Assembly (NCBI GenBank): GCA_955652395.1
Contig: CATPBJ010000193.1
Coordinates: 1 to 34,217, forward strand
Source of the DNA: an uncultured Terriglobales bacterium
Lineage (GTDB): Bacteria; Acidobacteriota; Terriglobia; Terriglobales; Acidobacteriaceae
Direction: 5' to 3'
Length of the DNA: 34,217 nucleotides
The position numbers were made by a program, and so were the translations under genes. Position 1 is the first letter of the stretch; every line of letters starts with the position of its first letter. The notes below the pieces were generated by a model, which worked only from the letters and a program-made list of their open reading frames with translations, made no database searches and had not been told where the DNA came from. This document shows positions 17,971 to 27,585 of this stretch, in pieces.

Positions 17971-20900
17971 CTAGTAAAAATCGTGCGAACTAGTCTCAGC
18001 CCGGGTAATTGATAACGACATTACCCGCTGCGCCTTCACTGAGATAACGTTATCTTGATTCTGCAGGATCCCTTCCACCATTAGAAATTGCTCGGAAGTC
18101 ACCAGCAGACGGTTTTTCTGAAAAAGGTCTGGCATGATGATGGCATTGGCGACTCCGGTCTCGTCCTCCAGGCTGAGAAAGACAAAACCCTTGGCGGTGC
18201 CGGGGCGCTGGCGGGCGATGACGCATCCCCCGATTCGCAGATACTTGCCGTTAGGAATGCCGGCGAGGTCGCTGGCTTTGCGAACTCCGATCGCATCCAT
18301 GCGCTCGCGGTGATAAGCCATGGGGTGCGGGCCTACGGTCATGCCGGTGCCGCGGAAATCGGCCACCAATCGCTCTTCAGGATTCATGGGGCGCAGCGGA
18401 GATTTGGCATCCGGCTCAGGAAGTTCGTCGAGCAGCGGCCCGGAGTAACGGACCGAGCGCTCGATCTGCCAGAGGGCGTCGCGACGATGGAGTTTCCCGC
18501 TTCCAGTTTCTGGTTTCCAGTGACCGGGACTGGAAACTGGAAACTGGAAACTAGAAACTGAATTGAGCGCTCCGATTTCTGCCAGTGTATTCAATTCATC
18601 CTTGCGTAGTTCGGGAACGCGATGAATGAGATCGTGAATAGAAGCGAACGGCGCGAGGTTGCGCTGACGAACCAGCGCCTGGGCAACTCCTTCCCGCATG
18701 CCGCGCACATAGCGAAGGCCAAGGCGTAGCGCCGGCGTCCCTTCGACTCCGCTCAGGGCAGGCCCGCCGGCTGTCCGGTGGGCGTCTCGCCCACCGTCCG
18801 TGAGTGACAAATTCTTTCGCCCCTCCGGGCCTTCATCTTCCTTTATTCTTTCTCCACGGCTTACGCCGTGGGCTACATTCTTTTGCCGCTCCGCGGCTGG
18901 AGCGTCATCATTTTCGTGGCGAACGACTTTCTGGCCAACGACCAACGACGAATGACCAACGACTGTCCCCACGACCGTACACTCCCACTCTGACTTCATC
19001 ACATCAATAGGAAATATCTTCAGCCCGTGCCGCTGCGCATCTTTCACAATCGTGGCCGGACGGTAAAAGCCCATCGGCTGGTTATTGAGCAGGGCGGCGG
19101 TGAATGCGGCGAGGTAATGACATTTCAGATAGGCGCTGGCGTATGCAATCAGCGCGAAGCTGGCAGCGTGGGACTCCGGAAATCCGTACAGCGCGAAAGA
19201 AGTAATCGAAAGTACGATCTGCTCCTGAGCCTCGCGTGAAATGCCGTTGCGCTCCATGCCGGCGCGAAGCTTGGCCTCAATTTCCTTCATGCGCTTTTCC
19301 GAGCGTTTGAATCCCATCGCCCGGCGCAAATCTTCAGCCTCGCCGCCGCTCAATCCGGCAACCACCATCGCCATGCGCAGTAACTGTTCCTGAAAAAGCG
19401 GGACGCCCAAAGTGCGCTTCAGCACCGGCTCCAGCGATGGGTGCGGATAGGTGACGACTTCACGTCCCTGGCGGCGCTGCAAAAACGGATTCACCATCTG
19501 CCCCACAATCGGCCCGGGGCGAATGATGGCGACCTGCACCACGATGTCATAGAAACGTTTCGGACGCAGTCGTGGCAGGCACGACATCTGAGCGCGGCTT
19601 TCGACCTGGAACATGCCGATGGTGTCGGCCTTTTGCAGCGTCGAGTAAACCGTGGGGTCGTCCGCCGGCAGGTGGGCGAGGTCCACTTCTTCGCCATAAT
19701 GATTGCGGATAAGCGTGATGGAATCTTCCAGCACGGCCATCATGCCCAGGCCCAGCAGGTCCACTTTGATAATGCCGAGATCAGCGCAGTCTTCCTTGTC
19801 CCACTGCACGACCACGCGGCCCGGCATGGACGCAGGTTCGAGCGGGACCACGGAATCAAGTTGTCCCTGGCAGATGACCATGCCGCCGGAATGCTGGCCC
19901 AGATGGCGCGGCAAATCCTGTACCGCTTCGCACAACTCAAAATATTTGCGCAGGCGAGGATGGCTCAGGTCCAATCCAGCGTCGTGGAAACGATGGTCGA
20001 GCGTGTCATGAGCATCGCGATATTCCCAGGTAGAGACTGCGGTGGAAACTTTGTCCAAAGTTTCGGGATCGAGGCCCAAAGCCTTGCCCATCTCGCGCGA
20101 CGCCATGCGACTGCGATAGGTGATGACGTTGGCGGTCATGGCGGCGCCACGCTCTCCGTAGCGTTTGTACAAATATTGAATGACGCACTCGCGCTGCTCG
20201 CCACTGGGCAGATCAAGATCAATGTCAGGCCACTCGCCGCGCTCCTCCGACAGAAAGCGCTCGAAAAGCAACTCCATGCCGATGGGATCGACCGCCGTGA
20301 TGCCGAGCGAATAGCAGACAGCGCTGTTGGCGGCCGAACCACGCCCCTGGACCAGAATGTTTTGCTCGCGGCAAAAGCGGACCAGGTCCCACACAATAAG
20401 AAAATAGCCGGCCAGCTTGAGTTTTTCGATCAGCGCCAGTTCGCGCTCGATCTGGCGCTGGGCGCGGCTTTTGAGGTCGGCACCGGACCGGCCATAGCGC
20501 TGCTGAAAGCCTTCCCGGGTGCGCTCCCGCAGGAAAGACATCATGGTCGCGCCTTCCGGCACGGGATACTTAGGAAATTCATATCCCAGAGCTTCGAGCG
20601 TGAATTCGAGCCGGGACGACAGTTCCACCGTGTTGGCCAGAGCTTCGGGCAAGTCGGCAAAGAGTGGTTGCATCTGCTGTGGCGATTTCAAGTGACGCTC
20701 GGAGTTGCGTGCCAGCAGACGCCCGGCCGTCGCCAGCGTGACATGATTGCGAATCGCGGTGAAGACGTCGCAGAGTTCACGTTCCCGCGGAGTCGCATAG
20801 CAGACACCATTGGTAGCTAACAGCGGAAGCTGCAGCGAGCGGGCAATATCGATGGTGGCGCGATTGCGAGCTTCCTGCTGGCGATGAAAATGGCGCTGCA

Positions 20901-21459
20901 ATTCCACATAGACATTGCCCTGGCCAAAAATGCCGGTCAGGCATTCCACCGAGCGGCGCGCCTCTTCCATGCCGTCCCGGGCCAGCGCGGTCGCCAGTGG
21001 ACCGTCATCGCCGCCGGTCAGGCAGATGAGCCCGGCAGCATGTTCCTGCAGTTCTTCTTTGCGGACAGCACCCTCGCCTTTCTGTGCCCGCAGCTTCATT
21101 TTTGTGATCAGGCGGCAGAGGTTCTGGTAGCCGGCGCGAGAAGAGACAAGGAGGGGAAGGCGGAAGAAATTGCAGATTTCAGATTTTAGATTGCAGATTG
21201 GTCGAGGCGGTTCGGGGTTCCAATCTTCAATCTGAAATCTGAAATCTGGAATTTCGCAAGTCACCTCCGCCCCCAAATGCGCCTTGACTCCCGCCTTCTT
21301 TGCTGCCATGTAAAAACGAGGCGCGCCATAGACGCCGTCGCGATCGAGCAGCGCCATGGCCGGCATGTTCAGGTGCGCGCATGTGGCGATCAGATCTTCG
21401 GGCAGAGAGGCGCCTTCGAGAAAGCTGAAAGCCGAGCGGGAATGCAGTTCGATGAACAT
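17971..21459 (-). CDS. dnaE2: Error-prone DNA polymerase DnaE2 (ImuC)
   Basis: A C-family polymerase alpha subunit used for damage-induced translesion synthesis. The N-terminal PHP domain starts FIELHSRSAFSFLEGAS. The palm acidic residues are in EWPDIDLDLPSGE (about 415), and the fingers include SGGMVICQG and KVDLLGLGMM. A C-terminal OB fold ends the protein (GCVIARQRPGTAKGFVFLSL). The 1162 residues exceed the usual 1030-1080. The excess is three in-frame insertions at about residues 68-97, 823-908 and 966-990, made of palindromic repeats (listed separately). imuA and imuB, common partners, are not adjacent. A candidate promoter lies at 21507-21535. No clear LexA box was found by eye. Confidence 0.93.
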   Translation of the reverse strand: MFIELHSRSAFSFLEGASLPEDLIATCAHLNMPAMALLDRDGVYGAPRFYMAAKKAGVKAHLGAEVTCEIPDFRFQIEDWNPEPPRPICNLKSEICNFFRLPLLVSSRAGYQNLCRLITKMKLRAQKGEGAVRKEELQEHAAGLICLTGGDDGPLATALARDGMEEARRSVECLTGIFGQGNVYVELQRHFHRQQEARNRATIDIARSLQLPLLATNGVCYATPRERELCDVFTAIRNHVTLATAGRLLARNSERHLKSPQQMQPLFADLPEALANTVELSSRLEFTLEALGYEFPKYPVPEGATMMSFLRERTREGFQQRYGRSGADLKSRAQRQIERELALIEKLKLAGYFLIVWDLVRFCREQNILVQGRGSAANSAVCYSLGITAVDPIGMELLFERFLSEERGEWPDIDLDLPSGEQRECVIQYLYKRYGERGAAMTANVITYRSRMASREMGKALGLDPETLDKVSTAVSTWEYRDAHDTLDHRFHDAGLDLSHPRLRKYFELCEAVQDLPRHLGQHSGGMVICQGQLDSVVPLEPASMPGRVVVQWDKEDCADLGIIKVDLLGLGMMAVLEDSITLIRNHYGEEVDLAHLPADDPTVYSTLQKADTIGMFQVESRAQMSCLPRLRPKRFYDIVVQVAIIRPGPIVGQMVNPFLQRRQGREVVTYPHPSLEPVLKRTLGVPLFQEQLLRMAMVVAGLSGGEAEDLRRAMGFKRSEKRMKEIEAKLRAGMERNGISREAQEQIVLSITSFALYGFPESHAASFALIAYASAYLKCHYLAAFTAALLNNQPMGFYRPATIVKDAQRHGLKIFPIDVMKSEWECTVVGTVVGHSSLVVGQKVVRHENDDAPAAERQKNVAHGVSRGERIKEDEGPEGRKNLSLTDGGRDAHRTAGGPALSGVEGTPALRLGLRYVRGMREGVAQALVRQRNLAPFASIHDLIHRVPELRKDELNTLAEIGALNSVSSFQFPVSSPGHWKPETGSGKLHRRDALWQIERSVRYSGPLLDELPEPDAKSPLRPMNPEERLVADFRGTGMTVGPHPMAYHRERMDAIGVRKASDLAGIPNGKYLRIGGCVIARQRPGTAKGFVFLSLEDETGVANAIIMPDLFQKNRLLVTSEQFLMVEGILQNQDNVISVKAQRVMSLSITRAETSSHDFY
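18490..18562. repeat. Repeat insertion 1 in dnaE2
   Basis: Tandem GGAAACT words form a long inverted repeat: CCAGTTTCTGGTTTCCAGT faces ACTGGAAACTGGAAACTGG across a short spacer. It encodes about 24 residues (VSSFQFPVSSPGHWKPETGS) between ALNS and HRRDALW, positions that are nearly adjacent in ordinary DnaE2. No stop is introduced. Confidence 0.75.
18725..18980. repeat. Repeat cluster insertion 2 in dnaE2
   Basis: A mosaic of short repeats sits inside the coding frame. It includes the GTAGCGCCGGC word, CCTTCGACTCCGCTCAGGG, a GGTGGGCG/CGCCCACC hairpin (near 18777-18797), GCCCCTCCGGGC, a CCACGGC/GCCGTGG hairpin (near 18854-18871), and a triple CGTTGGTC-type repeat (18936-18970). It adds about 80 residues of low-complexity protein between ECTV and LRLGLRY. 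Confidence 0.75.
21170..21255. repeat. Repeat insertion 3 in dnaE2
   Basis: Tandem CAGATTT/TAGATTG words on the left (21170-21200) face AATCTGAAATCTGAAATCTG on the right (21228-21250), forming a long imperfect hairpin. It encodes about 29 residues inside the PHP domain, between GAEVTCE and LPLLVSSR. Confidence 0.75.
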
Positions 21460-21592: not shown

Positions 21593-22276
21593 TTAGCGAA
21601 AACTTCCCGGGATATCCCAGAACGACCGGTCCAAACCAAGTTCGTCGAATATCCTGGCGGCCTGATCCGGCGTCTTGCGCCGCCATTCAGGCGAGAGGTA
21701 GTCACCGAACCAGCGTTCGGCTAGGCCAACTCCTGTTTTGATATCAAGGATGGAACCGGTTGGATGTCCATGGCGGGTACACCAGGCGTCGATCTTTGTC
21801 TGGGGGGAGAAGAGCAGGATGTTTCCGCAAGGACAATAAGGATTGTCCCACCATCGAACTGGCGGGTACGGGAAATGCATAACCAAATCCGGGCGTGTTG
21901 CCTTGCCGCTCCTGACCTCAAATTGCAGCGACTGTCCCTCTCCGCCGTCTGAGGTCAATATGTTCACATCTTCATGAAGGGCGGCTCCGATTCCAAGCGC
22001 GCACCAGGCGCAGTTCGCCCACCACCCGCCTCGACTGCTCATGACCCAGAATTGCGTCGGGACCAGGGCGAACGGGTGCAAGCTCCACACCTGCAGCGAG
22101 TTCGGCACGAGAACCACTCCATGCATTTCGCTGAGCTGGCTCAGAGCATGTTCTGTTTCTTGGGGAGAGAGTTTAGCCAACGAGGCGAGGGTTGTTGGGT
22201 CTGGGGCGTGGCCGGTTTCAACCACATGCCGCATGAGCACATGGTGCAAATGTTCCGGAAGGCTGGGGTTCACCAT
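21593..22276 (-). CDS. MerB-like (alkylmercury lyase family) protein
   Basis: A 227-residue protein with an N-terminal winged-helix-like part (LSQLSEMHGVVLVPNSLQVW) and a MerB-type core. MerB cleaves carbon-mercury bonds with two cysteines and an aspartate. Here AWCAL supplies the first cysteine (Cys92), and YCPC (Cys148, Cys150) aligns with the second. The aspartate that follows AWCAL in MerB is Gly95 here. The activity is therefore doubtful, and another role is possible. I chose ATG at 22276; the frame extends to 22483 but the extra part overlaps ilvC and is not protein-like. No mer operon genes are nearby. It is 71 bp downstream of ilvC. Confidence 0.7.
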   Translation of the reverse strand: MVNPSLPEHLHHVLMRHVVETGHAPDPTTLASLAKLSPQETEHALSQLSEMHGVVLVPNSLQVWSLHPFALVPTQFWVMSSRGGWWANCAWCALGIGAALHEDVNILTSDGGEGQSLQFEVRSGKATRPDLVMHFPYPPVRWWDNPYCPCGNILLFSPQTKIDAWCTRHGHPTGSILDIKTGVGLAERWFGDYLSPEWRRKTPDQAARIFDELGLDRSFWDIPGSFR

Positions 22277-22303
22277 GATTTCTTCTAGGCTTTGACCTGG
22301 AAG

Positions 22304-22332
22304 GTAGCGCCGCCGGCAAGATGCGGCGCTAC
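22304..22332. repeat. Perfect 10-bp hairpin after ilvC
   Basis: GTAGCGCCGC (22304-22313) pairs exactly with GCGGCGCTAC (22323-22332) around a 9-nt loop, starting 15 nt after the ilvC stop. It belongs to the GTAGCGCCGGC repeat family. It lacks a T-run, but could stabilise the 3' end of the leu-ilv mRNA. Confidence 0.65.
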
Positions 22333-22347
22333 TGGGAGCGACCGAAT

Positions 22348-23382
22348 CTACGCCGGCACTTTGGCGCGCTTGCTGGTTTGCTTCACCGTGACCGGATCGA
22401 GGAAGGTCATCATGGCCCGCAACTCCTCGCCTACCTTTTCGATCTGCTGCTGCTGTTCTTTCTCGCGGGTGGATTCGAACCATTGGCGGCCCGTCTCGTT
22501 TTCCCTAATCCATTTTTTGGCGAAGGATCCATCCTTGATTTCGCGTAGTAACTGCCGCATGGTCTCGCGGGTTTGCTCAGTGACGATGCGCGGTCCGGCG
22601 GTGTAATCGCCGTATTCGGCAGTGTCGCTGACCGAGTAGCGCATGTAGTTGAGACCGCCACGATAGATCAGGTCCACGATGAGCTTCAATTCGTGCAAGC
22701 ATTCGAAGTAGGCGATCTCGGGCTGGTAGCCGGATTCGACCAGCGTTTCAAATCCCGCTTTAAGCAAGGCACTTACTCCGCCACACAGCACCGTCTGTTC
22801 ACCGAAGAGGTCGGTCTCGGTTTCCTCGGCGAATGTGGTTTCGATGACACCGGCGCGAGTGGCCCCGAGGGCCTTGCCATAGGAGAGTGCGAGTTGTTTT
22901 GCTTTTCCCGTGGCGTCCTGGTGGATGGCTAAAAGCGCCGGTGTGCCGCCGCCTTCCACGAACACTTCGCGCACGCGATGTCCGGGCGCCTTGGGAGCAA
23001 TCATCGAAACGTCGACGTTAGCCGGAGGGGTGATGGTCCCGAAACGGATGTTGAAGCCGTGGGCGAACATCAGGGTTTTTCCGGCAGTCAGATGGGGAGC
23101 GATTTCCCTTTTGTAGACTTCGTGCGCAACCGTGTCCGGCACCAGGACCATGATGACGTCAGCCCAGGCCGAAACCTCGGCGACCGTGCCGACGGTCAGG
23201 CCGCTGGCTTTGGCTTTGGCGCGCGATTCGCTGCTGGCCGGCAATCCGACTCGTACGTCCACGCCGCTGTCCTTTAGGTTGAGGGCGTGGGCGTGACCCT
23301 GGGAGCCGTAGCCGATGATGGCGACCTTCTTCGCCCGGATCAATGCCACATCGGCGGCATTCTCGTGATACATCTTCGACAT
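22348..23382 (-). CDS. ilvC: Ketol-acid reductoisomerase IlvC
   Basis: IlvC catalyses the Mg- and NADPH-dependent rearrangement and reduction of acetolactate (or acetohydroxybutyrate) in valine and isoleucine synthesis. The 344-residue class I form shows the nucleotide-binding GYGSQGHA at 24-31, FAHGFNI near 107-113, and the metal ligands Asp191 and Glu195 in [24 protein letters not shown] follows. The frame is open up to 23661, but the ATG at 23382 has AAAGGA six bases upstream and gives the standard N-terminus. It is the last gene of the leuA-ilvB-ilvN-ilvC operon, 67 bp after ilvN. Confidence 0.97.
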
Positions 23383-23449
23383 TGTTGTTCCTTTCGACGG
23401 ATAACGAGCGGTTTGACTTGTACGGAACTTTGTTTTGAACCGACCTTGG

Positions 23450-24001
23450 TTAGACCGAATATGACACGCCTTCATCCGCGGCAACCTGAGGTGTCTTGGT
23501 CTGGTTGGGGTTGGCCGAAGGCGAAGTCGTGCCGCGTCGCATAGCGACGATACCGGTGCGCACCATCTCCACCACACCGTAAGGACGCAGCACTTCCAGC
23601 AGGCCGTCGATCTTGTCTTCGCCGCCGGTGATTTCGATGGTGAGTGATTCGGGCGCGACATCCACCACGCGGGCGCGGAATACGCTGGCTAGTTCGAGCA
23701 CGTGCGAGCGGGCCTCATGGGTCGCGGCCACCTTAATCATCGCCAGGTCGCGGGCAATCGCCGGCTCGTGGGTGATGTTTTCGACCAGAAGCACGTTCAC
23801 CAAATTATAGAGATTGGCCTCGATGCGTTTGGCCTGGTCCGGATTCGTGTCGACCGTGATGGTCATGCGCGAAACCTCAGGCTTCTCCGTGCGACCAACC
23901 GTCAGCGAGTCGATGTTGAAGGCGCGGCGGCGGAACAGCGATGCCACACGCGTCAGCACGCCCGGTTTATTTTCCACGTACACCACAAATATGTTCAGCA
24001 T
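23450..24001 (-). CDS. ilvN: Acetolactate synthase small subunit IlvN/IlvH
   Basis: The regulatory subunit that binds branched-chain amino acids and activates the large subunit. The 183-residue protein has an N-terminal ACT domain ([33 protein letters not shown]) and a second domain with [16 protein letters not shown] near 145. The start chosen is the ATG at 24001, 7 bp after the ilvB stop and preceded by AAGG. The frame extends to 24034, but that would overlap ilvB. The last 25 residues are a low-complexity tail. The intact ACT domain suggests valine feedback is kept. Confidence 0.95.
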
Positions 24002-24008
24002 TTTGGCC

Positions 24009-25721
24009 TTATTCGTCCGCGGCAGTTTCGACAATGGGACTGGGCCGCCGGATCATGTCATTCAAAGACGCACCGGCTGCGACCATCGGGTAGACGGTGT
24101 CTTCCTGCTCCACTTTGAAGTCGAGCAGCACCGCCCCGTCGTGATCGCGCGCCGCCCGCACGGACGGCAGCACCTGTGAGCGCTCCGTCACCGCCATGCT
24201 GCGGATACCGTAAGCCTCCGCCAGTTTCACAAAATTTGGATTCAGCAGCGGTGTGGCTTCGTAGTTGCGCTCATAGAAAAATTCCTGCCACTGGCGCACC
24301 ATCCCCAGGAAGCCATTGTTGATGATCGCAATGTTGATCTTCAGCTTCTCCTGCACGATGGTCGCGAGTTCGGACATGGTCATCTGGAAGCCGCCGTCGC
24401 CGACGATCACCCAGACCTCCGCCTCCGGCCGCGCTACCTTAGCACCGATGGCCGCGGGCAGCGCAAAGCCCATGGTTCCCAGCCCCCCCGATGTAATCAG
24501 TGAGCGCGCCTTTTCGTGTTTGAAGTATTGCGCCTCCCACATCTGATGCTGGCCGACGTCGGTCACGACAACAGTATTGCTACCGCGGGTTTCGCGCCAC
24601 AGATCGTTGATGACGTGCGCCGCGTAGAGATGTCCGTTGTCGGGAAGTTTCTGAACGTCCCGCACCGCGGAATCGCCTTTTAACTTGTCGATGGAATCCA
24701 GCCATTCGGTGTGGTCGACCGACTCGACGCGAGGCAGCAACTCCTTGAGGACCTCGCGCAGATCGCCGACGAGCGCGACATCCACTTTGACATTTTTGTT
24801 GATTTCAGCAGGATCGATTTCGATGTGGATCTTTTTGGCATCCTGCGCGTAGGTCTTGAGATTGCCCGTGACCCGGTCGTCGAAGCGCATGCCGAGAGCC
24901 AGCAATAGGTCCGCTTCCTGGATGGCGTGATTTACCCAGGCTTCGCCATGCATGCCCATCATTCCGAGATTCAAAGGATGAGAAGCAGGAAACGCTCCCA
25001 ACCCGAGCAGAGTCAGGGCCACAGGAATGCCGGCCTTCTCCGCCAGGGTCAGAACTTCCGCCATGGCGCCGGAGACGATAATGCCGTGTCCAGCCAGGAT
25101 GAGAGGCCGCTTGGCCTTGTGGATCAACTCCAGCGCCTGTGCGTACTCCGTCTCCTCGGGAGAAAGATCAGGACGATAACCCGGTAACTGCGGCCGCGCA
25201 GCTTCCCAATTGAATTCGCAGGAAGACTGTTGCGCGTCCTTGGTTATATCCACCAGCACCGGACCCGGGCGTCCAGAGCGAGCCACGTAAAACGCTTCTC
25301 GCAACACACGAGCCAGTTGATCGGCGTGGGTGACGAGGTAATTGTGCTTGGTGATGGGCAGCGTGATACCGGTAATGTCGGTTTCCTGAAAGGCGTCGGA
25401 GCCGATCAGCTTGCTCCCCACTTGTCCCGTAATGCAAACAATGGGAGAGGAATCCAGCATCGCGGTGGCGATACCGGTCACCATATTAGTCGCACCCGGC
25501 CCTGAAGTCGCGACCGCAACCCCAACCTCGCCACTGGCCCGGGCGTACCCGTCCGCCATGTGGGTGGCGCCCTGCTCGTGGCGCACCAGGATGTGATGGA
25601 TATCGCTATGCTTCAACGCATCATACGCCGGCAGAATTGCGCCTCCCGGGTAGCCGAAGACATGCTTCACGCCCTCGCGCTCCAGACATTCCCACAGAAT
25701 TTGTGCTCCCGTTTTTGTCAT
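24009..25721 (-). CDS. ilvB: Acetolactate synthase large subunit IlvB
   Basis: A ThDP-dependent enzyme that joins two pyruvates, or pyruvate and 2-ketobutyrate, as the first common step of Val/Leu/Ile synthesis. The protein is 570 residues from the ATG at 25721. The catalytic glutamate is Glu49 in LVRHEQGATHMADGYAR. The middle FAD-binding domain has ALGMRFDDRVTG, and the ThDP/Mg motif GDGGFQMTMSELAT is near 440, followed by a matching Asn pair (IINN). The alternative ATG at 25760 overlaps leuA and has a badly spaced ribosome binding site. It lies 35 bp after leuA in the same operon. Confidence 0.96.
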   Translation of the reverse strand: MTKTGAQILWECLEREGVKHVFGYPGGAILPAYDALKHSDIHHILVRHEQGATHMADGYARASGEVGVAVATSGPGATNMVTGIATAMLDSSPIVCITGQVGSKLIGSDAFQETDITGITLPITKHNYLVTHADQLARVLREAFYVARSGRPGPVLVDITKDAQQSSCEFNWEAARPQLPGYRPDLSPEETEYAQALELIHKAKRPLILAGHGIIVSGAMAEVLTLAEKAGIPVALTLLGLGAFPASHPLNLGMMGMHGEAWVNHAIQEADLLLALGMRFDDRVTGNLKTYAQDAKKIHIEIDPAEINKNVKVDVALVGDLREVLKELLPRVESVDHTEWLDSIDKLKGDSAVRDVQKLPDNGHLYAAHVINDLWRETRGSNTVVVTDVGQHQMWEAQYFKHEKARSLITSGGLGTMGFALPAAIGAKVARPEAEVWVIVGDGGFQMTMSELATIVQEKLKINIAIINNGFLGMVRQWQEFFYERNYEATPLLNPNFVKLAEAYGIRSMAVTERSQVLPSVRAARDHDGAVLLDFKVEQEDTVYPMVAAGASLNDMIRRPSPIVETAADE

Positions 25722-25756
25722 GAACCCAGTCCTCGCGCTGTTTGTTGCCGCTGCAA

Positions 25757-27100
25757 TCATACTCCCCAGAGATAGTCTTCCTGCTCGCCCTCGCGCTCGT
25801 TCGAGTGCGCCGCGTGGGCGGCGTGCGCCTTTTCTTTCACACCTACCGGATCGAGATGTGCCGGCTGAACATCTTCTTTACTCACCGGGGCCATCCACGT
25901 GGACGCCGTCTTGCCGGCGCTATCCGGAAGGGTGGTAGTGCGGCTGGGCACATCGCGCACCAGATCGAGCAAGTGCCCATCCTCGATCGTCTTGATCTGG
26001 TCGGCCAGGGCCACAAAGCGACGGTATACATCGTCGAGTTGTGCCCGGTCGAAGGTGAAGCCCAGCTTCTCGTAGCGTACCCGCAGAGCATTCCGGCCCG
26101 AGTGCTTGCCCAGCACCAGGGAATTGTGGGGAGCGCCAACCGACTGAGGCGCTATGATCTCATAGGTCGATGGATCCTTGATCATTCCGTCCTGGTGGAT
26201 GCCGGCTTCGTGCGCAAATGCGTTCCGCCCCACGATGGCCTTGTGCGGCTGCACGTAAACGCCGGTGATTTCAGACAGGAGCTGGCTGGACGGAAATAGC
26301 TGCTCGGCCACGACCGCGGTGTGATACGGATAGTGCTCCGCCCGGACCCGCATCACCATGATCAGCTCTTCCAATGACGTGTTGCCGGCCCGCTCGCCGA
26401 TACCATTCACGGTACATTCCACCTGGCGCGCGCCCGCGCCTATGGCTGCCAGAGAGTTTGCCACCGACAATCCCAGGTCATCGTGGCAGTGAACCGAAAT
26501 GGTCACGCCGTCGATGGCTCGCACCCGGCGGCGCAGAGTCTGCATTAGCTCACCGAATTCATGGGGCACACTGAAGCCGACCGTGTCCGGAATGTTGAGG
26601 GTGGTCGCGCCTGCCTCAATCACGGCCTCCAGCACCTCGCAGAGGAAGCTGATGTCCGTGCGGCTGGCGTCTTCGGCGGAGAACTGGACATCTTTACAAA
26701 AGGAACGTGCCAGCTTGACGCCGTCGCGGGCCTGCTCCAGGCATTGCCGCCGCGAGATCTTCAGTTTGTGCTGCAAGTGGATATCAGAAGTGGCAAGAAA
26801 CGTATGAATACGCGGACGGGCGGCGCCTTCGAGGGCGCGCCAGGCTCGTTCGATGTCGCCTGGACAACTGCGCGCCAGCGCGGCGACCACGGGACGGCGA
26901 AGCTCGCGTGCCAGCACGCGCACCGCCTCAAAGTCCCCTTCCGATGCGATAGGAAATCCCGCCTCGATGATGTCTACACCCAGGCGATCCAACTGGTGCG
27001 CCATGCGCACCTTCTCGGCCACGTTCATGCTGCAGCCCGGAGACTGTTCTCCGTCGCGCAATGTGGTATCGAATATGGTTACGTGCTCTGCTTGAGCCAA
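25757..27100 (-). CDS. leuA: 2-isopropylmalate synthase LeuA, lacking regulatory domain
   Basis: LeuA condenses acetyl-CoA with 2-ketoisovalerate to begin leucine synthesis. Catalytic features are [13 protein letters not shown] at the N-terminus, HCHDDLG in mid protein, and the subdomain [13 protein letters not shown]. The protein is 447 residues, while usual LeuA is about 510-520. The sequence diverges after [14 protein letters not shown], and the C-terminal leucine-binding domain is replaced by a 60-residue Ala/His-rich tail. I set the start at TTG 27100 because GGGGAGGAAAG lies six bases upstream. The in-frame ATGs at 27160 and 27157 are inside the 3' arm of the attenuator terminator. It is the first gene of leuA-ilvB-ilvN-ilvC. 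Confidence 0.9.
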
Positions 27101-27146
27101 GTCTTTCCTCCCCGACCCCGAGGGCCGTGCTTGAACTGCAGAAACT

Positions 27147-27184
27147 AAAAAAGCCATCATCCGATGCGGTGGATGATGGCTTTT
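27147..27184 (-). terminator. Attenuator: intrinsic terminator before leuA
   Basis: On the minus strand a 14-bp perfect stem (27171-27184 with 27149-27162), an 8-nt loop and a six-T tail form a textbook intrinsic terminator 46 nt before the leuA TTG. A competing pairing exists: 27205-27216, which overlaps the leader-peptide stop codon, can pair with 27166-27177 (11 of 12 bases), taking up half of the terminator 5' arm and loop. This is the antiterminator expected if a ribosome stalls upstream. Confidence 0.88.
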
Positions 27185-27205
27185 GCTGATCTCGATATCG
27201 CTAAA

Positions 27206-27322
27206 TCATCCGCCGCTGTTTTGAGGTGCAAGCACCAGGCCAGGAATGGCCACGCTAAGGGCGAGAAGAACCAGTCGCACCTCCCGCGCTGCACGGCTAG
27301 CGACAATGGCTACACGGTCCAT
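27206..27322 (-). CDS. leuL: leu-ilv operon leader peptide
   Basis: A 38-codon reading frame runs ATG 27322 to TGA 27206-27208. Fourteen of its 38 residues are Leu, Val or Ile, and 11 of them lie in the 17 codons 15-31 (VRLVLLALSVAIPGLVL). The stop codon lies within the antiterminator strand and 21 nt before the terminator stem. This is the classic layout for ribosome-stalling attenuation: scarcity of charged Leu/Val/Ile tRNA halts the ribosome in codons 15-31, the antiterminator forms and leuA is transcribed. The ribosome binding site is weak (GGCT, about 10 nt upstream). The peptide itself probably has no function after synthesis. I use leuL by analogy with enterobacteria. Confidence 0.82.
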   Translation of the reverse strand: MDRVAIVASRAAREVRLVLLALSVAIPGLVLAPQNSGG

Positions 27323-27350
27323 AGAAAGTCAGCCTGATTCGTATATAGAC

Positions 27351-27379
27351 AGGCTACCGGCGTCCCTCGCCGCTGTCAA
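27351..27379 (-). promoter_or_regulatory. Candidate leu-ilv operon promoter
   Basis: On the minus strand TTGACA (27374-27379) is followed after exactly 17 bp by TAGCCT (27351-27356). Transcription would start near 27344, about 20 nt before the leader peptide ATG. The -35 is perfect and the -10 is weak (three of six). It is the only such pair I see between the upstream small gene and the leader. Confidence 0.5.
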
Positions 27380-27393
27380 TCCAAATTGCCGCT

Positions 27394-27585
27394 TTAGCCC
27401 ATCACTTTTTTCGATAGATCGCCGCCGCGTAGATGCTCTTCAAAGGCTAGGCGTAGCATGTCGCTCAGTTGATCTGGTTTGCTGCTCTGGACTTTGACGA
27501 GGATTCCTTCGTGGCAAACCGAGCATTCACCCGAAGCGGCCAAGCCCACCCGCAGTTTCGCTATTAATTCCGCCTGTTCAGCCAT
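27394..27585 (-). CDS. Small CXXC protein, unknown function
   Basis: A possible 63-residue protein with an amphipathic N-terminus and ECSVCHEG near residue 20, which could bind a metal or be redox active, then a helical tail (LSDMLRLAFEEHL). I do not recognise it. Its stop lies 15 bp before the -35 box of the leu promoter, and the base and codon pattern looks coding. The ribosome binding site is poor, so the start may be elsewhere or the gene may not be real. Confidence 0.45.
   Translation of the reverse strand: MAEQAELIAKLRVGLAASGECSVCHEGILVKVQSSKPDQLSDMLRLAFEEHLRGGDLSKKVMG

Follow-up and report, generated by a model that had tools for sequence, protein, structure and literature searches.

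A predicted ribosome-mediated attenuator upstream of leuA-ilvB-ilvN-ilvC and a putative family of such leaders in Acidobacteriota

Leader-peptide attenuation is textbook knowledge in Proteobacteria and Actinobacteria. In E. coli, the leuL, ilvL, ivbL and thrL leaders encode a peptide rich in cognate codons and carry mutually exclusive antiterminator and terminator hairpins before leu, ilv or thr genes; leaders of the trp type form a protector (1:2) hairpin when they are not translated. Here we analysed a stretch of 34,217 nt (hereafter the window; contig CATPBJ010000193.1 of assembly GCA_955652395.1) from an uncultured Terriglobales bacterium, in which a leader precedes leuA-ilvB-ilvN-ilvC on the minus strand. 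This leader resembles those of E. coli in its peptide, its exclusive hairpins and the type of genes that follow. Like the other acidobacterial leaders described below, it differs from them by a stop codon located inside strand 2 of the switch, by the absence of a protector strand in the model and by the use of one switch for several pathways. Judging from sequence comparison and modelled folds, the window element is very probably a ribosome-mediated transcription attenuator and one member of an Acidobacteriota family with a constant switch and a varying peptide.

Three articles (PMC1262725, PMC10272879, PMC11857589) describe candidate leader peptides with terminators for ilvB of Corynebacterium, Mycobacterium and Streptomyces, and report a pseudoknot, the LEU element, for the leuA operons. 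The acidobacterial leaders can be likened to these ilvB leaders by description only, both having a peptide and a terminator, in different phyla. According to PMC8632094, uORFC-8-2 (cysS, Rhodobacterales) has a conserved start, cognate codons and a terminator, and ribosome-mediated attenuation was proposed for it; unlike the acidobacterial family, it concerns a single gene and two tandem Cys codons in another phylum. In the accessible passages of a broad survey (PMC2965389), the predicted attenuators of Acidobacteria are almost all without assigned function, and no leader-peptide class is named for this phylum; its authors state that, to their knowledge, Proteobacteria and Actinobacteria were the only groups with demonstrated leader peptides, to which they add a case in Firmicutes. 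The corresponding passages of PMC4833913 mention Acidobacteria just for leader-gene distances. Among the open-literature matches listed (titles, beginnings of abstracts and some passages), none was seen to report attenuation by leader peptides for Acidobacteria. The mechanism is of a known kind; the family looks new, with one stop-containing switch shared by many amino-acid genes of the phylum.

Elements of the window leader

The leader open reading frame (ORF) starts at ATG 27322 and runs on the minus strand to TGA 27208–27206, as given by the sequence and the ORF list. Its size of 38 codons, with 14 Leu/Val/Ile codons of which 11 lie within codons 15–31, had been noted in an original prediction made from the sequence alone, and all these numbers were reproduced. 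The same holds for a 14 bp terminator with six T and for an alternative pairing of 11 out of 12 bases over the leader stop (27216–27205 with 27177–27166). The elements, all on the minus strand, are:

27206..27322, minus: leader peptide ORF, 38 codons (ORF list; frame open in 13 of 13 aligned leaders including the window)
27230..27280, minus: predicted stalling region, codons 15–31, with 11 Leu/Val/Ile (sequence and ORF list)
27205..27216, minus: strand 2, antiterminator 5′ arm GCGGCGGATGAT, holding the leader stop (2:3 pairing above 1000 permutations, 87 leaders)
27166..27184, minus: strand 3, shared arm, with the core ATCATCC at 27177–27171 (sequence, terminator scan, covariation)
27149..27162, minus: strand 4, terminator 3′ arm, with the second GGATGAT copy at 27162–27156 (terminator helix 98.1% paired)
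27147..27152, minus: terminator T-run, six T (sequence)
27225..27251, minus: stretch conserved at the nucleotide level (invariant alignment columns; two possible small hairpins, predicted)
27374..27379, minus: predicted −35 hexamer TTGACA (TTGACN at the equivalent place in 13 of 14 leaders including the window)
27351..27356, minus: predicted −10 hexamer TAGCCT, 17 nt downstream of the −35

The sequence GGAUGAU occurs twice in the leader, once enclosing the UGA stop and once in the terminator 3′ arm. Its single complement, AUCAUCC, is able to pair with either copy, never with both. Codon 31 starts 24 nt upstream of the stop, a spacing compatible with strand 2 being covered by a ribosome at the stop and left free by a stalled one. 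The terminator scan returned a single site on the minus strand, with 14 pairs at 27184–27149, and the stem ends 49 bases upstream of the leuA start, in the same orientation. Shuffled versions of the region contained on average 0.9 terminator-like sites; the window terminator is therefore unremarkable by itself, and it is its conservation that stands out.

A promoter-like pair had also been proposed. A consensus promoter scan of the leader region called no promoter. TTGACN and TANNNT, separated by 17–18 nt, are present in 13 of 14 related leaders including that of the window (the remaining one, L130, has a single deviating base in its first hexamer; L and G numbers designate loci and genomes), and on this alignment we predict the window promoter at 27379–27351.

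Relatives of the leader and a shared switch

Among 61 genomes near the window, we scanned the regions upstream of 51 leuA loci, which are distributed over 49 genomes and include the locus of the window. Leader and terminator were present only in the window and in G001, which belongs to the same genus. In eight of nine other leuA copies inspected (one being the second copy of the window genome), a LysR-type gene apparently diverges upstream; the LysR-type identity was verified for the four upstream genes tested (L002, L006, L009, L033). Orthology of leuA alone thus proved unsuited to finding relatives of the leader, and the productive routes were a DNA search with the leader followed by two covariance models, R1 and R2. 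The second leuA with its diverging LysR-type gene was seen in the window genome (L002, contig C172 of G000) and in its nearest relative (L033, G001); with a leader-type and a LysR-flanked leuA in one genome, the two copies may be under different control. A T-box had been considered as an explanation of the ACCGC...GCGGT repeats that lie ahead of other leuA genes, and was rejected: the repeats lie within the LysR coding region and had no Rfam match.

In the family, 398 genomes were searched with the leader DNA; 24 gave a match at E≤0.01. The match reached E<1e-10 in 13 genomes, and R1 was built from the leaders of these 13. On the same 398 genomes, R1 retrieved 14 full-length leaders, window included, with scores of 126–196 bits. 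Twelve precede leuA (L127 has just a leuA start, then ilvB) and two precede ilvB. In these two, L132 and L136, the leuA-type leader lies directly 5′ of ilvB, an arrangement that would fit a loss of leuA from the operon. Homologues that had lost the frame or the antiterminator were sought; all 14 leaders keep a frame rich in Leu, Val and Ile, a TGA within GGATGA and a terminator. The frame has exactly 38 codons in 10 of them and 35–40 in the others. The elements named in the leu/ilv attenuation reading are thus all present and conserved in relatives, which supports it.

Weaker R1 matches (E≤0.01) were obtained in 44 of the 398 family genomes and in 36 of 299 genomes of the class. They are partly bare terminators and partly other peptides on the same switch, before ilvD, ilvB, ilvA or aspartokinase genes. 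The weak matches judged were those fetched as loci, L150 excepted: L144–L148, L151, L152, L165, L167, L171, L176, L181, L183 and L184, as well as L247, L251, L257, L259 and L260 from the R2 search, were discarded as bare terminators or unrelated sequences. One further locus, L172, which comes from another family, carries at 1501–1599 a shorter leader with GTGGCCATTACTGGCC and without the GGATGA switch; by eye, this leader precedes a citramalate synthase-like gene.

The switch of 47 leaders, leuA-type included, was aligned (alignment A2) and served as the basis of R2; all 47 were picked for a TGA at the expected place, L158 and L172 having been dropped for want of it. A 5-mer common to strands 2 and 4 is found in 33 of the 47. 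Searched against 396 genomes spread over the phylum, R2 matched 64 at E≤1e-3, with a best score of 68 bits; the matches include some bare terminators. We inspected 69 listed places, two of which were already known, and the genes were tallied for the other 67. By blastp to representatives (ten of which were named with NCBIfam, the others with Pfam), 46 precede genes for aspartokinase, homoserine dehydrogenase, ilvB, ilvN, ilvC, ilvD, cimA, cysteine synthase, gltB or pheA. Two more were assigned by tblastn (L226, aspartokinase; L242, pheA) and one precedes a siroheme-synthase-like gene (L198, Pfam). The remaining 18 comprise three LysR-type genes, two major facilitator superfamily (MFS) transporters, four small ORFs, a cupin-like pair (L246 with a weak Pfam match, L245 with none), one place without gene assignment (L244), one contig end and five false matches. 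The 48 places assigned by blastp or tblastn lie in 36 genomes; together with G079, G132 and the window genome, 39 of the 396 genomes were seen to have a match before such a gene. An intact attenuator in an acidobacterium had been called unexpected; the element is real, and it is not isolated, the switch being spread across amino-acid pathways of the Acidobacteriota.

Three of these leaders, rich in branched-chain amino acid (BCAA) codons and bearing the same switch, lie before LysR-type regulator genes (L192, L197, L233). In L193, L195, L225 and L228, Leu/Ile-rich leaders with the switch precede an ORF of about 75–90 aa, with ilvC convergent beyond; Pfam gave no match for the small ORF of L195. 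A set of 75 classified leaders spans 17 families (labels transcribed by hand) and 12 gene classes. Switch identity is 0.796 within the same family before another gene, versus 0.790 in another family before the same gene, and thus favours neither movement of the switch between genes within a lineage nor its descent with each gene.

Covariation had been suggested as a check of both hairpins. For the terminator helix, 98.1% of the cells are paired in the 47 leaders, 5 of 11 pairs are changed on both sides, and none of 500 shuffles equalled these values across the five measures. For the antiterminator, an alignment of 87 leaders was made with R2, whose structure holds the terminator only. It uses 87 of the 116 loci inspected: 19 of the R1 set were omitted (near-repeats, L158 and L172), as were ten of the R2 set (L199, L247, L249, L250, L251, L255, L256, L257, L259, L260). 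Strand 2 matches its own strand 3 better than the strand 3 of other leaders: the core is paired at 0.926 against 0.909 in permutations, and the 5′ extension at 0.489 against 0.365, with none of 1000 permutations as high in either case. Kinship was handled solely by reduction to 51 leaders, with the same outcome (core 0.930 versus 0.904; 5′ extension 0.412 versus 0.337). No excess was seen for the 3′ extension (0.489 versus 0.483 permuted). Three cimA leaders have 17–19 contiguous antiterminator pairs, G-U counted. By these alignments, the terminator and antiterminator helices are both under selection.

We then compared the residues encoded by the 25 codons that precede the TGA with the downstream gene in 91 leaders with a gene class. 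L201, L230, L249, L255 and L256 were dropped, having no TGA frame of at least 15 codons, and for three leaders of the R1 set with two TGA candidates (L162, L179, L182) the one richer in Leu, Ile and Val was used. Thr reaches 0.156 before aspartokinase and homoserine dehydrogenase genes versus 0.054 elsewhere (permutation p 1e-4; p 2e-4 after removal of similar peptides, 61 left). Leu reaches 0.293 before leuA versus 0.093 (p 5e-5; 0.008 in the reduced set, where two leuA leaders are left), Ile 0.187 before cimA and ilvA versus 0.081 (p 0.0015; reduced 0.03), and Leu, Ile and Val together 0.40 before BCAA genes versus 0.19 (p 5e-5). We take the Thr/Ile-rich leaders before acidobacterial aspartokinase genes to resemble thrL. 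By eye, eight leaders (L209, L212, L221, L222, L223, L231, L201, L230) contain a second frame, closed by a TAG a few codons later, that is richer in Thr/Met or in BCAA; L243 has a richer second frame closing at a second TGA. Richer frames ending at the nearby TAG suggest that the switch closes two frames. In L209, L221, L222, L223 and L231, all from family f42, it is the TAG within GATGATGTAG and not the TGA that, by eye, closes the richer frame. In L255 and L256, also by eye, TAG and TAA replace TGA at the equivalent stop place.

As controls outside the phylum, R2 was searched in at most 339 distinct genomes. At E≤1e-3 it matched 3 of 121 genomes of the G985 phylum (titled Gemmatimonadetes) and, in the G993 phylum (Sphingomonas), 3 of 200 genomes, and at E≤0.01 it matched 4 of 20 mixed genomes, with a best score of 34 bits. 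Of 16 listed outside-phylum matches, 14 were inspected, and none combines a codon-rich leader whose stop lies in the switch with a following amino-acid gene. Per genome, these controls were searched no less deeply than the phylum (22–150 versus 11 candidates scored). In the window genome, R2 recovered the leader described here at 60.8 bits, its terminator in reverse and three non-leader matches at about 17 bits.

Folding, proposed working and other explanations

The attenuator reading joins a leader ORF of cognate codons to a predicted intrinsic terminator between this ORF and leuA, with an antiterminator that would exclude the terminator through the shared strand 3, that exceeds permutations in 87 leaders and that forms on the cut RNA. 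When the window leader was cut before strand 4, 6.72 of the 7 core 2:3 pairs formed with a ribosome placed at each of nine Leu/Val/Ile codons, and the same value was obtained without a ribosome; an untranslated leader is therefore predicted to read through. Over the 47 leaders cut in this way, at least 5 of 7 core pairs formed in 38 when the ribosome was placed 8 codons ahead of the stop and in 32 without a ribosome. In the fold proposed as a check, the terminator is predicted on the complete leader whether the ribosome-covered bases are masked or not, and the antiterminator only before strand 4 is transcribed. On the complete leader, the antiterminator therefore does not prevail over the terminator. 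With such a preference, the switch would have to be kinetic, with the ribosome as its sole protector: the model contains no protector (1:2) hairpin, which we take as inessential to this class of attenuators.

The element could then work as follows. When charged Leu, Val and Ile tRNAs are ample, the ribosome would reach the UGA and cover the first GGAUGAU copy; the complement would pair with the second copy, forming the terminator, and no leuA-ilvBNC transcript would be made. When charged tRNAs are scarce, the ribosome would stall at codons 15–31 and leave the first copy free, which could capture the newly transcribed complement before the second copy exists, allowing RNA polymerase to read through. 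From this combination of elements, we infer both termination at the window leader and its dependence on the ribosome.

Several observations weigh against this reading. On the complete window leader, the terminator is the predicted fold in every case, with a stalled ribosome or none, and 44 of the 47 complete leaders form it with at least 5 of 7 core pairs. With the ribosome 8 codons ahead of the stop, nine of the 47 cut leaders fall short of 5 of 7 core antiterminator pairs, and the nearest relative, L134, makes none. The absence of 2:3 pairing with the ribosome at the stop is a product of the assumed footprint mask, and the model would depend on kinetics. On A2, the antiterminator shows no covariation excess (81.1% paired versus 81.3% shuffled), so that covariation supports the terminator on 47 leaders and the antiterminator on 87 leaders, and fails for the antiterminator on A2. 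The first T-run has just 3–4 T in 8 of 13 aligned leaders, and no good Shine-Dalgarno sequence precedes the leader ATG. Some leaders with the switch are non-cognate, two before pheA being Val-rich and about ten leaders being non-cognate in the TGA frame. The two cysteine-synthase leaders L252 and L258 have 7 Cys in 25 codons each and alone carry the Cys claim, because the class figure also counted L198 and L244, and the inclusion of L244, placed by its own leader, is circular. Finally, nucleotide conservation in the leuA-type leaders exceeds what codon counting needs. The Val-rich leaders seen before prephenate dehydratase, L196 and L218, use the same switch and are not Phe-rich.

An arrest peptide, in which the nascent peptide sequence itself stalls the ribosome in response to a free amino acid or another small molecule, would account for the leuA-type peptide being kept residue by residue beyond its composition: the core consensus is LLALSVAIxGLVLAP, with variants, and SVAIxGLVLAP falls in the predicted stalling region. 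We consider this unlikely, as leaders of other genes combine the same switch with different peptides that are mostly rich in the cognate residue, a codon-counting pattern, and as wobble bases, which a peptide effect does not need, are conserved as well. This wobble conservation would fit a structured cis-regulatory RNA, either a riboswitch or a protein-binding leader, with an incidental short ORF. In 11 leuA-type leaders, third-position identity amounts to 0.80 across 21 codons and to 0.90 for the last 12, versus 0.49 over 60 codons of leuA (best 12-codon stretch 0.62), the leader value being somewhat inflated by anchoring at the most conserved motif. The predicted fold of this stretch allows two small hairpins, GGCC-AUUCCU-GGCC and GGUG-CUUG-CACC, with no covariation to support them; perhaps they might pause the polymerase. 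However, every indel within the ORF of the 13 aligned leaders is 6 nt long, whereas indels after the stop range from 1 to 12 nt, which argues for translation of the leader, and the peptide varies by pathway, its residues following the downstream gene, while stop and terminator stay constant. Rfam, whose whole set of 4227 families was scanned, gave no match up to E=1 in region 27100–27400. At the gathering score it had none in L004 and only a tRNA in 20 further loci, all of which carry leaders of this sort except L172, whose leader is related; the T-box model had no match in the same scans. A structured RNA of this kind is accordingly a very improbable explanation. The idea of an ordinary intergenic terminator that ends an upstream transcript and lies next to a chance hydrophobic ORF, for which the 0.9 terminator-like sites per shuffle and the many weak model matches to bare terminators could be quoted, is extremely improbable, given 14 leaders that keep ORF, stop position and terminator (13 also the promoter spacing), a stem so close to leuA in the same direction, and Thr- and Cys-rich leaders before Thr- and Cys-pathway genes.

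Operon, neighbouring genes and meaning for the phylum

The identity of the downstream genes as leuA-ilvB-ilvN-ilvC had been proposed, and NCBIfam and Pfam agree on it:

25757..27100, minus: leuA, 2-isopropylmalate synthase (NCBIfam/Pfam; likely TTG start at 27100)
24009..25760, minus: ilvB, acetolactate synthase large subunit (NCBIfam/Pfam)
23450..24034, minus: ilvN, acetolactate synthase small subunit (NCBIfam/Pfam; true start may be later)
22348..23661, minus: ilvC, ketol-acid reductoisomerase (NCBIfam/Pfam; family match from ORF residue 94)

The leuA TTG is preceded by GGGGAGG, and the ATG at 27160 of the longer listed ORF falls within the terminator; from the sequence, LeuA likely starts at this TTG. 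As the ilvC family match begins only at residue 94, the true ilvC start is likely later. Window LeuA (447 aa) has Pfam matches to HMGL-like and HCS_D2 only, with no Pfam match to the leucine-regulatory C-terminal domain, and a comparably short length is seen, as open frames, for most of the close leuA genes from the same family. In a LeuA devoid of a Pfam-matched regulatory domain, transcription control might replace feedback control. The closest named relative of window LeuA (91% identity, L079) comes from a Terriglobia metagenome assembly, and Terriglobia belong to the Acidobacteriota, which bears out the acidobacterial source that had been suspected. Downstream of ilvC, the ORF at 21593–22483 (minus) has a Pfam match (1.5e-24) to MerB, the alkylmercury lyase family. 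An Acido-Lenti-1 RNA match (RF01687, 45.9 bits) at 18853–18898 (plus) sits antisense within the gene for DNA polymerase III alpha (17971–21459, minus; Pfam); Acido-1 and Acido-Lenti-1 appear among the motifs of PMC2864571.

Taken over the phylum, the evidence leans towards a broader proposal: Acidobacteriota would control a large part of their amino-acid biosynthesis by a single frozen switch, GGAUGAU...AUCAUCC...GGAUGAU, whose first copy holds the leader stop and in which any codon-rich peptide, read in the frame of the UGA or in that of a UAG located five bases further on, acts as the Leu, Ile/Val, Thr or Cys sensor without a protector. The three strands and the stop codon must change together, which would explain why the switch is fixed phylum-wide while peptides are exchanged. 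Acidobacteriota are abundant in soil. If true, the proposal would provide them with a predicted system of amino-acid control. Its members could be annotated from sequence by means of a covariance model, and for a set of operons the amino acid sensed would be readable from the leader. With a single switch, many peptides and no protector strand, the family would also be a natural test of minimal attenuator design.

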